DNA from: Tautonia plasticadhaerens
GTDB lineage: Bacteria; Planctomycetota; Planctomycetia; Isosphaerales; Isosphaeraceae
Length of the DNA: 64,000 bases
Assembly (NCBI RefSeq): GCF_007752535.1
Contig: NZ_CP036426.1
Coordinates: 3,162,001-3,226,000 of the forward strand
Reading direction: 5' to 3'
The translations under genes were made by a program, and so were the position numbers. Below the pieces are notes generated by a model, which had not been told where the DNA came from, ran no database searches, and was given only the letters and a program-made list of their open reading frames with translations. Position 1 is the stretch's first letter. Every line of letters starts with the position of its first letter. This document shows, piece by piece, positions 24,270-28,589 of the stretch.

Positions 24270-24709
24270 CGCAGGAAGGGGGTGTATCGGGCCGAGACGC
24301 GTGCAGCGGCTTCGTCGGAGACCTTCTGGATGGGATTGTCCTGGGCGGTGACGGCTTCGGTGCCAATCAGGTAGTCGTAGAAGGTCGAGACGGCGGCGAG
24401 GTTCCGGTTGATGGTCGTGGGGGCGAGGGGCCGGGCCAATCCCTTCGGCCCCCGGCCGGGAACCTCGCGCAAGAAGGCGAGTAGGTCCAGGGCGCGGGCG
24501 GGCGTGAAGTCCTCGATCCGGAGTTGTGCGGAGCGCAAGAACCGGAAGAGACGCTTGAGGTCATGCGCATAGGCCAGGAGGGTATTGGGCGAGCAGCCGC
24601 GAGCGCGCAGGTGGCGCAGGAACGCGGCGACGGCGGGGATCACCGTTCCGTCGTCGTCGAGCAACTCGACATGGAGCTCGCCGTCCCGTCGTTGTTTTGA
24701 GACCCTCAT
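24270..24709 (-). pseudogene. XerC/D-like site-specific recombinase, N-terminal fragment
   Basis: On the minus strand, MRVSKQRRDGELHVELLDDD begins a typical core-binding domain: VAAFLRHLRARGCSPNTLLA, YAHDLKRLFRFL, TTINRNLAAVSTFYDYL, DNPIQKV. The frame is cut near ARYTPFL by the IS5 fragment, before the catalytic domain. The longer open frame continuing to 23714 runs antisense through the IS and integrase and is not part of this gene. It is a different subfamily from the island integrase and probably came with another element. Confidence 0.75.
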
Positions 24710-24764
24710 GCCGGCTTCCTCTCTCGGTGTACCGCCGTTCGCCGTGAATGTCCACATAACTCTG

Positions 24765-25118
24765 TGGAAGGCCGCGGGGAAGGGCAGGACGCCATACTAC
24801 TTCCACCTCCGCGACGACCCGCCCTTTGCCTTCGCTGGCCTGTGGGAATGCTGGTCGAAGGGCCCAGAGCCGATCGACAGCGTCGCCATCATCACGACCG
24901 AGCCGAATGAACTGGTCGCCCCGGTTCACGACCGGATGCCGGTGATCCTCCGGCCCGAGGAATTCGGTCAGTGGCTCGACCCTCAGGAGCAGGAAGCGGA
25001 CCTGCTCTCGCTCCTGGCACCGCTTACGGCCGGGTGGATGGATCCGTATCCGGTCGGCAAGCTCATCGGCAGCCCGAAGAACGACCGGCCGGAGTGCATC
25101 GAGCGGGCGGCCACCTGA
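24765..25118 (+). pseudogene. SRAP (YedK/HMCES) family protein, C-terminal remnant
   Basis: The readable part (WKAAGKGRTPYYFHLRDD, PFAFAGLWECWSKG, SVAIITTEPNELVAPVHDRM, PVILRPEEFGQWLDP) is the second half of an SOS-response-associated peptidase, which crosslinks to abasic sites in single-stranded DNA. The first half, including the catalytic Cys2 and the Asn/Glu segment, is missing. Homology begins abruptly just upstream of the recombinase fragment, so an insertion or deletion cut the gene. It converges on the 155-aa gene, whose stop codon begins 13 bp away. Confidence 0.75.
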
Positions 25119-25131
25119 CCGGGGGCCTCGC

Positions 25132-25599
25132 TCAATAGCGCTGGTCGATGAGCACCGGCATCCAGGCACCGCCGGTCATGTTCTTGTAGTAATTCGTCGA
25201 CGGCTCGCACACGACGAAGCAGACGGCCCAGCCCTGCTCGTCCGGGGCCAGGACCCCCCGAATCCCCTCCCGGACGAAGACCCAGGCCCCGTTGTGGGCC
25301 CAGAAGCTGGCGGCAATCTCGACCGGGACGGCCCCGAACCGCGCCCACTCCCCCGCCTGCACGCCGGAGAGGCGAGCCAGGGCGGTGCGCGGCAGCCGCC
25401 GGCTCCGCCCGTCGAAGTTGCCCCAGCGGGCGAACTGGATCGTCCCGTCGCGTCGGATCGGGATGCGAGGCCGGGGGTCGGCCAGAGCGAAGCGATACTC
25501 GGGCGGCGACTCGCCCCCGAAGGCCCGCCGCCTCAACTCCGGCCGCCCGACCAGCTCCGTGGGCACCTCGCTCCCTGCCAGGATGACGACCGGCCGCAT
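25132..25599 (-). CDS. uncharacterised 155-aa protein coupled to a Y-family polymerase gene
   Basis: The gene starts 3 bp after the polymerase stop codon, so the two were almost surely translated in tandem. The sequence is a compact globular protein with no signal or membrane segment. Features visible: YRFALADPRPRIPIRRDG, IQFARWGN, IAASFWAHNGAWVFV, VVCEPSTNYYKN and WMPVLIDQ. The order (R-W-G, then a W-x-F segment, then a CEP...MPVLI segment) resembles the strand order of SRAP proteins (RWG, FYEW, TTEPN...MPVIL), but no Cys2 start is present. A divergent SRAP-like fold is a hypothesis only. Confidence 0.65.
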   Translation of the reverse strand: MRPVVILAGSEVPTELVGRPELRRRAFGGESPPEYRFALADPRPRIPIRRDGTIQFARWGNFDGRSRRLPRTALARLSGVQAGEWARFGAVPVEIAASFWAHNGAWVFVREGIRGVLAPDEQGWAVCFVVCEPSTNYYKNMTGGAWMPVLIDQRY

Positions 25600-25892
25600 T
25601 GCTCAGAAGACGTGCTTCCCCCGGATGTCGCACACCTCGCGATAGGTCGCCGGGTCGCTGTAGATCTCGGGCAGGGCCAGGGTCGCCGCGCTGCGCAGGG
25701 CGAAACGCCCATGCCGCGCGTTCACGGACTCCTTGAGCGCGTCGACCACGTCACAGGCCGCCGCCGGCTCGTCGAACAGCGCAAGCTGCTCCTGCCCTTC
25801 CGGCGCGAGCTGCTCGGCGAAAAGGTGCATCCGCGTGGCGGACGCGCCCGGGATATAGGCCGCCCGCAGGCAGGCGGAGTAGCCGTCATAGA

Positions 25893-27526
25893 CAGTAGTT
25901 TCCCCGAATCACTCCACCCCATCTCCGGCGGTGCGTAGCGTCTCCCCGCTACCCGCACCGTGAGGTGGCTCGGTCGGCCCCGGATTTCCCGCCTCGAACG
26001 CCCGTCGGCGTCGGATCGCTACCCGCCGACCCCGCCGACCCCGCCGACCCCGCCGCACGACCGCCTCGAACCGTCCTCCCGCCCTTCTCCCAGCCATTCC
26101 GACAGGAGCCGCCGGATTTCCGGGCCGTGCCGTCGCAGCAGTCGTTCGACATCGAGCACGCTCGGCCGGTCCTTCTTGCGGTTCCACGGCGGCCGGAACC
26201 ACCAGCCCACCTCGCCGGCCGCCTCCAGCCGGAACTGGGCCAGCCGCAGCAGGCTCATCGTCACCCACTGGGCCTGGCTCGTCCGCTCGATCGGCTTCCT
26301 CGTCCAGGCCCGGCACTGCTCCCATCCCAACCGCTGCTTTAGGTCTCGAAATCCGTCCTCCTGCCGGAAGCGGGCGGCGAACAACTCGACCATCTGAAGC
26401 CCGGTCAACTCCACGGCCGAGGTGACCAGGGCGAACCGCTTCTTGTACCCCTCGACGCAGGCGACGACCGCCTTGATGGGCACCCCATGGCCGGCCACCC
26501 GCCACCGGCCGACGACCTCCTTCCAGCGGACCCGCCGCCGCCGGCCGTAGACCAGGGCGTGCCCCTCGTGCCACGGCCCGGACCACCGGCCGCCCCGGCG
26601 GGGCGGCTCCAGCTTCTTGCCCCACTTCGGCATCGGCCCCCGCTGCCCCTCGCGGCGTCCGGTCGGCGGCGGGGCGTGCAGCCGGGCGTCGTGCCGCAGC
26701 CGGGTCAGGAACTCGATGCGGGGCGAGTCGCCCTCGGGCGTGACCAGCGGCCGGATCACGCTCTTCAGGGCGTAGCCGCCGTCGAAGACGGCCAGGTGCC
26801 GCCCGCCGGTGATCCGGGCCTGCTCCCGGATCAGTTCCACGGCCAGTTCGCACTTCGTGCGGAAGCCCACCTTCGGCCCGACGAACCCCGACCGGGCCGG
26901 CAGTTGCGACTTGCGGAAGTAGAGCCGTCCCGAGACCGGCAGGAACCAGGCGGGCCGACCGGGCTCATCGAGCAAGGCCCCGAGCACGACCCAGTTATGG
27001 GCCCGGACGGTGGCGGCCCGGTTGGGGCAGCGGGCGGTGTACTCGTGGAACGTGCAGGTTCCCCAGACGTGCTTGCCCGAGCGGTGGACCTTGGTGTCAT
27101 CGACCGCCGGGGCGTGATAGCCGTGCCAGGTGCGGCCGGGGGCCTGCTCGACGAGCCGGGTCAGGCTGCGGGTGACGGCCCCGGCATCCCAGGCCCCGTA
27201 CTCGGCGAAGCGTTCCATCGCCCGCCAGTCGGCCGGCCGGTCGAGGGCCAGGACCGACTGCGTGACGGTATGCTCCTCGACGTTGAGGGCCAGGCCGGTG
27301 ACCCACTCGACGAAGCGGCGGTGTCCGGGCCGGTTGAAGGCCCAGGCGAAGCGGGCGAGCAGTGCTTGCCAGATCGACCAGAGCAGCGTAGCGTCGGTCA
27401 TCGGGGCATCTCCTGGTGCGGGACCGGATGAGGTGGTGATCAACCCATCAAGGTCCGATCGGGAGATGCCCCGCTCAAGATGCAACAGGAGGCCGGTAGG
27501 AGTGCAGGTTTTCGGGGAAACTACTG
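25893..27526 (-). mobile_element. complete insertion sequence (IS4/IS701-like) inside the polymerase gene
   Basis: Perfect 16-bp terminal inverted repeats CAGTAGTTTCCCCGAA (25893-25908 and, inverted, 27511-27526) and a 6-bp target duplication CATAGA (25887-25892 and 27527-27532). Length is 1634 bp. The clean ends, the duplication and the intact transposase mark it as one of the youngest insertions in the window. Confidence 0.92.
26019..27401 (-). CDS. DDE transposase of the 1.6-kb IS (IS701/IS4-like)
   Basis: Protein of 460 aa from the ATG at 27401. An N-terminal helical region is followed by a DDE core: APAVDDTKVHRSGKHVWG (first Asp), HLAVFDGGYALKSVIRPL (second Asp), and a C-terminal RQEDGFRDLKQRLGWEQ helix containing the Glu. 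The last residues are a GGV repeat coded by a 9-bp tandem repeat at 26022-26055. The frame looks intact, so the element may be active. The family name is given from motif layout and is not certain between IS701 and related IS4-type groups. Confidence 0.8.
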   Translation of the reverse strand: MTDATLLWSIWQALLARFAWAFNRPGHRRFVEWVTGLALNVEEHTVTQSVLALDRPADWRAMERFAEYGAWDAGAVTRSLTRLVEQAPGRTWHGYHAPAVDDTKVHRSGKHVWGTCTFHEYTARCPNRAATVRAHNWVVLGALLDEPGRPAWFLPVSGRLYFRKSQLPARSGFVGPKVGFRTKCELAVELIREQARITGGRHLAVFDGGYALKSVIRPLVTPEGDSPRIEFLTRLRHDARLHAPPPTGRREGQRGPMPKWGKKLEPPRRGGRWSGPWHEGHALVYGRRRRVRWKEVVGRWRVAGHGVPIKAVVACVEGYKKRFALVTSAVELTGLQMVELFAARFRQEDGFRDLKQRLGWEQCRAWTRKPIERTSQAQWVTMSLLRLAQFRLEAAGEVGWWFRPPWNRKKDRPSVLDVERLLRRHGPEIRRLLSEWLGEGREDGSRRSCGGVGGVGGVGG

Positions 27527-28589
27527 CATAGAGGGAGTCGAAGCGATCCGAGGGCGGCACGACCGACGACCGCCCGCCCCGCGTGATGCCGTGGCGGTCC
27601 TTCCCCTTGCGATAGCAGAGCAGCAGGCTGATCCGCCCGGCCTTGAGCCGGTGGAAGCGGAACTCCTCGATCAGTCGCTCCAGGTTCCGGACCATCCAGC
27701 CGTGGATCATGTAGGGGTCGGCGGTCTCCCGCCCGAGGCTGCCACCCCGGCTGATCATCTTGTGCCTCGGCCGCTCCTCCTTGAGCGGCAGCACCGCCTC
27801 GCCATTGACCTCGTACCAGATCGCCTCGCCCACGACGGTGAGGAGACGACGGATCAATCGCCGATCCGCCCTGGCGAACTCCAGGCAGGTGCCGATGCCG
27901 ACCCCGGCCAGGACGGCGGCCCGCCGCTTGCCGATCCCGCACAGCTCCGTGACGGGTAGGGTGACGAGCAGCGACTCCTCCTCGGCCGGCGTGAGCACGG
28001 CGGCGGCGCCGAACGGCTTGGCGACGTCGCAGAGCAGCTTGGCCAGCGTGCGGGTCCGCGCGATCCCCGTCGTCGTCGGCACGCCGACCCGCTCGCGGAT
28101 CTGGCCTCGGACCGCCTCGGCCGTCCCTTGATAGGATCCGCCGATGGGCAGCGCCTCGAAGCCCATCTCATCGATCGAGAAGTATTCCGCCAGCGGGGAC
28201 AGCGTACGGAGCTCCTCCAGCATCCGGCCGGAGACGTCGCCCAGCCAATCGAAGTCGCGCTTGAGGAACACCCCGTTCGGGCACCGGACCTTGGCCTCCC
28301 AGATCGGGTCGCCGACGGTGATGCCCGCCCGCTTCATCTCCGAGCTGCGGGCGATCACGCAGGCCCCATTGTTGCCGAGGACGCCCAGCGGGCGGCCGCG
28401 CAGGCTCGGGAACCGCACGCGCTCGGCGTTGCAGTAGAATGTGTCCGCGTCAACCCAGCCGATCGCCTCCATGAACAAAGGGATACACTGAACCCAAGGC
28501 CAGGTCAAGTCGCGGCCGACGCCACGCGTACTCGCCCCGCGACCCTGTCGAGCATCCTTCGGGTGTTCCCGGGCAAGGCGAGGCGGCTC

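Follow-up and report, generated by a model that had tools for sequence, protein, structure and literature searches.

A reduced SRAP-like protein family near-obligately associated with a tailed UmuC-like polymerase in Planctomycetia, and its probably degenerate copy in Tautonia plasticadhaerens

In Pol V (UmuD'2-UmuC), the gene of the small subunit, a protein with the S24 peptidase fold, is located beside the gene of the UmuC-like polymerase. The very C-terminus of UmuC is the part that binds UmuD' (PMC12926913). The genes of SRAP proteins were described as adjoining translesion polymerases in UmuCD/ImuB/DinB operons (Aravind 2013, PMC3765255), and they also occur near archaeal-type PolB2 (PMC11791011). 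In the SRAP protein YedK, Cys2 is the attacking residue, Glu105 serves as the principal acid-base, His160 assists ring opening, and Asn75 is of minor importance (PMC9436759). A link between a UmuC-like polymerase with the RecA-NT motif and a SRAP-related gene, resembling that of the family described below, is stated by Timinskas et al. 2026 (PMC12926913) in one sentence and in one more in the Discussion. That study obtained confident AlphaFold complexes for representatives of its 11 module types, and the SRAP-like module is taken here to be one of these 11 types. No taxa, sequences, residues or tail were found for the module in the main text of that paper, and it may correspond to the present family. 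The pairing of a UmuC-like with a SRAP-like protein is partly in print already, and its kind is known in outline. In the literature searched, as far as its accessible text extends, no family definition, residue pattern, polymerase tail or near one-to-one co-occurrence was found, nor a decayed copy such as the probable one in the window, that is, the whole 64,000-nucleotide stretch of Tautonia plasticadhaerens contig NZ_CP036426.1 that was analysed. The pair found in this window resembles Pol V in having a small-subunit-like gene beside the polymerase gene, and differs from it in that the small protein has a predicted SRAP fold instead of the S24 peptidase fold.

The protein is encoded by a 155-aa open reading frame on the minus strand, running from 25599 to 25132; the plus strand does not encode it there. 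The locus is composed of the following features:

24585..25118, plus strand: canonical SRAP remnant, 5'-truncated (PF02586, E 2.4e-31)
25132..25599, minus strand: miniature protein with a predicted SRAP fold, 155 aa, assigned by fold and residues, with Arg2 and His102
25603..25892, minus strand: UmuC-like Y-family polymerase, C-terminal fragment, with the motif VNARHGRFALR and the tail CDIRGKHVF
25893..27526, no strand given: IS701-family insertion splitting the polymerase (NF049999, E 3.7e-58; PF13546, E 1.7e-15)
27527..28508, minus strand: Y-family polymerase, N-terminal fragment, IMS domain (PF00817, E 2.2e-26; PF11798, E 0.0011)

Along the minus strand, the N-terminal part of the polymerase, the IS701-family insertion, the C-terminal part of the polymerase and the 155-aa frame thus follow one another. 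The TGA of the polymerase (25605-25603) is followed by GCA and then by the ATG at 25599, which agrees with the 3 bp spacing given in the preliminary description, and the segments quoted there (ARWG, SFWAHNGAWVF, CEP and WMPVLI) are all found in the frame. The SRAP remnant reported beside the gene is real as well; it is convergent with the 155-aa frame and covers only positions 109-213 of the 214 in the PF02586 profile. The coupling to a polymerase stood in part: the partner is a Y-family polymerase, but what adjoins the frame is only its C-terminal fragment. The gene is split by the IS701-family element, which has 28-bp terminal inverted repeats (25893-25920 and 27499-27526, 82% complementary) and is flanked on both sides by CATAGA (25887-25892 and 27527-27532). 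In the N-terminal fragment a SIDE motif is readable, and the frame has its first start codon at 28508, although translation may begin further inside. This fragment scored 133.8 bits against the UmuC model, below the cut-off of 431; the IMS domain was also recognised in the polymerases of four relatives (PF00817, E 1.7e-35 to 9.4e-37). The VNARHGRFALR motif is presumably of the RecA-NT type. That the 155-aa frame is a real gene, and more than a chance frame, was confirmed by four further full-length copies in the same genome (49-51% identity, accompanied by one fragment), by homologues in 40 of the 45 genomes of the order, mostly one copy in each, and by its GC3 of 0.923, which is still coding-like next to the 0.916-0.968 of three relatives.

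The predicted structures place this protein and its relatives, further called the mini family, in the SRAP superfamily. AlphaFold2, supplied with an alignment of 36 sequences, gave a model of the relative L043, from Aquisphaera insulae, with pLDDT 91.0 and pTM 0.87, and a model of the window protein with pLDDT 89.0 and pTM 0.86. Compared with the PDB by VIA-align, the L043 model found 15 SRAP entries at Z 8.8-10.7 and a next entry at Z 2.1. For the window model, 14 SRAP entries scored Z 8.5-9.9 and the next entry Z 2.4. Most of the aligned ranges paired residue 2 with residue 2 and extended almost to the end of the model. The top three Foldseek hits in the PDB were SRAP structures too (E 0.011, 0.016 and 0.26), none being below E 0.001. 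Among known SRAP structures are 1zn6, 2f20, 2aeg, 2bdv and 2icu (PMC3765255). The structure prediction and fold search proposed in the preliminary description therefore left SRAP structures as the sole standout, at Z 8.5-10.7, and the SRAP-like nature suggested there is borne out by the predicted fold and, in agreement with it, by profile comparison. The models show for the mini family a SRAP fold, as in YedK and HMCES, in a reduced form.

The profile comparison was initially weak when shallow alignments were used (hhalign local E 0.003, probability 10%, nothing useful in global mode), and this was changed by deeper alignments. With 96 mini sequences against 42 canonical SRAPs, the two profiles were collinear from 1-153 to 1-169, with E 4e-4 in local and 3.5e-5 in global mode, both for a single comparison, and a probability of 35-45%; the collinearity spans from MC to RMPVLI. 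With insert columns removed, the real scores were 29.8 and 19.7. The reversed alignment gave 15.7 and 4.1, and the 150 column permutations reached at most 22.5 and 9.7, all of them staying below the real scores. The profiles thus show that the mini family is homologous to SRAP, as judged from sequence. The predicted fold is common to both over residues 2-155, and most mini members also start with Met-Cys and carry an acid on the Glu105 position. The collinear motifs, mini versus canonical, are RF.Y / RYN, WG in both, V.IPA / CLVPADG, and EP...RMPVLI / EPN..HDRMPVIL. The differences are also clear: canonical SRAPs have about 220 aa, whereas the mini proteins have about 155 aa and no PF02586 match; the His160 position of canonical SRAP is not conserved in the mini family and the Asn75 position apparently not either; the window copy, unlike canonical SRAP, has neither Cys2 nor the acid; and the mini family is tied to one polymerase type.

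The likeness to SRAP could be a product of chance, with an unrelated fold behind it. This reading would be consistent with the fact that no family model rose above chance: Pfam, PHROGs and NCBIfam gave no such match for the window protein or the relatives tried, PF02586 matched neither the window protein nor any of 36 members, and no Pfam family was better than E 0.12 for these 36. An hmmsearch of the sequences of solved structures in the PDB returned seven unrelated rows (best E 0.045) and listed no SRAP. The best Pfam row for the window protein, PaaA2 (E 0.34), and the best PHROG row, phrog_10025 (E 0.28), are at chance level and were rejected. Chance is nevertheless the least probable of the explanations weighed in this work, since SRAP chains alone exceed Z 2.5 for both models, and the permutation control and the 146-aa bridge family described below argue against it too.

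This bridge was found by tblastn on a plasmid of the proteobacterium Methylophaga thalassica (NZ_CP143310.1), in which a SRAP-like 146-aa 'hypothetical protein', beginning with MCGG, closes an array of lexA, a Y-family polymerase and the SRAP-like gene (L203:2114-4393), the last two overlapping by one base. Together with three relatives, the protein gave an alignment with the mini family at E 1.3e-20 and a weak one with SRAP (E 0.018), FMEK falling on FYEW and IHxRWP on HDRMP. The 146-aa protein is a likely bridge from canonical SRAP to the mini family. On the Methylophaga plasmid, the polymerase does not carry the CD[VI]xGKxCF tail described below, and four of the five plasmid records with a 146-aa relative have no polymerase alongside it in the stretches examined. 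These include conjugative plasmids of Pseudomonas and Nitrosomonas (L205, L206 and L207), in which no polymerase is present in the stretch examined and the relative closely follows an MbcA/ParS/Xre antitoxin-type gene or a RelE/ParE-type toxin and regulator. No relative of the 146-aa protein was found in phage records, and the viral contigs held one short match to it, of 27 residues.

When the window protein was the sole query, scanning genome contigs gave no match; the profile search matched 107 of the 397 genomes of the class and, in a phylum-wide sample, 14 of 392 genomes, all 14 within the window's class. Neither the viral contigs nor the phage records contained a mini-family relative. The loci were taken from two sets. 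The 35-locus set consists of records titled Isosphaeraceae, Aquisphaera, Paludisphaera, Singulisphaera, Tautonia and various MAGs; the 60-locus set was hand-picked from the class profile matches and restricted to nearly full-length sequences from outside the family of the window; highly similar entries from one genus were dropped, as were broken or partial ones. Three MAG contigs titled Candidatus Kuenenia stuttgartiensis (L062, L063 and L065) bear the planctomycete pair and are probably mis-binned or mislabelled.

The mini gene adjoins a UmuC-like Y-family polymerase in 81 of the 95. In the 60-locus set the polymerase is directly upstream on the same strand in 52 loci, with gaps of -1 to 493 bp, and the remaining 8 have no polymerase within up to 3 kb on each side. 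Four of these 8 belong to genomes that have a further, linked copy (G055, G067, G070 and G076), and in another one, L127, a short frame immediately upstream matches the tail. The 35-locus set comprises 22 co-directional neighbours, 7 head-to-head pairs, one polymerase at 2.7 kb and 5 loci with no match. Three of these five have a polymerase C-terminus truncated at the end of the contig, one (L041) has almost no upstream flank, and one (L045) has no polymerase within 6 kb.

The polymerase partner is also recognisable by its sequence. Among the 81 polymerases scored, 79 end at the very C-terminus in CD[VI]xGKxCF, with Gly replaced by Asp in a few, and the two exceptions are L122, which has a broken frame, and L170. 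A second motif upstream of this tail, [VI/T]NxxxGRFxLR, is present in 78 of the 81; it is presumably the RecA-NT motif. A profile of the last 80 polymerase residues detected the tail in 104 of the 397 class genomes. Protein and tail occur together in 103 genomes, the protein only in 4 (G016, G092, G204 and G237), the tail only in 1 (G027) and neither in 289. Genera were found to split coherently, as in one genus in which both are present in G055 and G070 but absent from G046 and G064, and three genomes (G026, G040 and G041) keep both genes even though these lie far apart. The co-occurrence, the coherent split and the pairs that are unlinked yet kept make mere hitch-hiking unlikely. The family search proposed in the preliminary description, namely whether homologues accompany Y-family polymerases, was thus answered positively for most loci and genomes examined: the mini protein co-occurs near-obligately with the CD[VI]xGKxCF-tailed polymerase and frequently adjoins it.

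Other genes showed little constancy. When neighbours were clustered for 38 of the 95 loci, leaving aside the pair itself and any frame that overlaps either of its two genes in another phase or strand, a canonical SRAP recurred in 8 loci and no other further gene in more than 4. In a minority of the loci, a canonical SRAP is found only a few kb from the pair (L126, L130, L144, L147, L161, L166, L173, L176 and others), and its presence would fit an origin of the mini protein by SRAP duplication inside the polymerase operon. The palindrome TGAAC-N4-GTTCA was found in 5 of 76 stretches upstream of polymerases, compared with a maximum of 3 in 20 shuffles; it is possibly a LexA-type site and a shared SOS box, a signal too weak to be claimed.

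The active-site positions were examined in the same 95 loci, among which two contigs appear twice (L064/L120 and L066/L121). Cys occupies position 2 in 68 loci; the 27 others have Met (8, in which the N-terminus is shorter by one residue as read), Ser (6), Leu (6), Phe (2) or other residues or a gap (5). Start codons were assigned by alignment, and a few of the loci scored as lacking Cys2 (L041, L135 and L136) may start elsewhere or be broken. Position 102, which the profile alignment places on SRAP Glu105, is Glu or Asp in 70 loci and something else in 25. Position 144, aligned on His160, is Ser in 54 loci and His in 10, with Gly in the window copy, and on the position of Asn75, the residue that holds Cys2 in YedK, the profile alignment puts Trp, in the least certain stretch of the alignment. 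Cys2 and the acid occur together in 51 loci, the acid only in 19, Cys only in 17 and neither in 8 (Fisher p 0.80). No joint loss was detected over the 95 loci, and this independent loss of the two residues argues against one strictly conserved covalent chemistry. In this respect the mini family differs from the SRAPs described by Aravind 2013 (PMC3765255), in which Cys2 is absolutely conserved and Asn, Glu and His are conserved. The preliminary description had proposed a SRAP variant without Cys2, which applies to the window copy with its Arg2 but not to the family, the majority of which retains this residue. Its reading of fold and partner is supported as right, and would be wrong only if the loss of Cys2 were taken as a rule for the family.

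The window copy itself is probably a degenerate and diverged paralogue in the course of decay. It carries Arg2 where the family usually has Cys2, and His102 where Glu or Asp is usual. At 53 positions that are at least 95% conserved in 26 loci (L036-L061) it differs in 13, and the next worst locus in 3; at 30 class-wide positions with 85% conservation it differs in 6, a number equalled or exceeded by 5 of the 95 others. These many departures, together with Arg2, His102 and the splitting of the polymerase by the insertion, are the reason for regarding it as probably degenerate, and the protein probably neither cross-links nor serves a working polymerase. The other copies in the genome are located at C1:5215290, C2:182487, C3:62378 and C4:7248, form two protein-identical pairs, and are spread over a chromosome-size contig and smaller contigs. 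There are also 11 SRAP matches, mostly partial ones. Within the Tautonia plasticadhaerens genome, the module appears to be both mobile and subject to decay.

Several functions may be considered for the intact members. The protein could be a free-standing abasic-site shield like YedK and HMCES, merely co-expressed with a polymerase that has to be kept off the shielded site. The SRAP fold and the frequency of Cys2 and of the acid are consistent with such a role, and in the order, where 36 of the 45 genomes have no canonical SRAP match, the mini protein could fill it. Canonical SRAP matches were found in 9 of the 45 order genomes versus 89 of 148 in the class sample; many class genomes outside the window's family carry both proteins, and the idea that the mini protein replaces canonical SRAP was rejected as not general. 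The joint presence of both also argues against a free shield, as does the independent loss of Cys2 and the acid in many linked members. Moreover, such a shield need not co-occur near one-to-one with one tail type, as seen in 103 of 108 carriers, and this explanation appears unlikely.

An alternative in which the mini protein is a purely structural polymerase subunit, keeping the SRAP fold with no chemistry and with Cys2 as a left-over, deserves more weight, although we still regard it as rather doubtful. It is in line with the lack of conservation at the His160 position and, apparently, the Asn75 position, and with the persistence of members starting with Met-Leu, Met-Phe, Met-Asp or Met-Asn next to full-length polymerases. 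The best conserved columns (E34, F37, W59, P70, W106, Y137 and P148) are, as mapped, non-catalytic in SRAP. However, a Cys directly after the start in most loci, over a wide divergence, is more than would be expected of an unused residue.

The position of the gene beside a polymerase, as that of UmuD, also brings to mind a LexA/UmuD-like self-cleaving switch that licenses the polymerase, and an autopeptidase activity was proposed for SRAP in 2013 (PMC3765255). Cys2, however, comes directly after the start and leaves nothing but Met to cleave, and active-site mutants of YedK still lose Met (PMC9436759). The window protein did not match PF00717 (Peptidase_S24) and has the predicted SRAP fold instead. 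This explanation is considered very improbable. The absence of LexA/UmuD was discarded as an argument, S24 matches being present in 45 of 45 genomes and hence uninformative.

The mini protein is more probably an accessory subunit of this UmuC-like polymerase, in the place of UmuD'. Judging from the co-occurrence, it may occupy the UmuD' position of Pol V and may dock on the conserved CD[VI]xGKxCF tail, and the binding as a subunit is supported by the analogy with the very C-terminus of UmuC, which binds UmuD' (PMC12926913). The SRAP-type groove would then hold the single-stranded template beside the polymerase. In members that possess both Cys2 and the acid of position 102, abasic sites may be captured as a covalent adduct, by which the protein would choose between shielding and bypass. 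More tentatively, as a possibility rather than an expectation, the polymerase may carry its own abasic-site capture module, clipped on through the tail, which decides between shield and bypass, while some lineages (with Ser2, Ala2 or Leu2) would have dropped the chemistry and kept the subunit.

Summarizing, SRAP proteins shield abasic sites and in this way keep error-prone polymerases away, whereas in the case presented here a protein with a predicted SRAP fold is the near-obligate companion of such a polymerase. The mini family shows that there are SRAP relatives which sequence models miss, and the CD[VI]xGKxCF tail offers a concrete sequence handle for finding and testing the proposed polymerase/mini-SRAP complex. 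The pairing argues clearly, and in a form open to testing, for a physical switch that selects either shielding or bypass.
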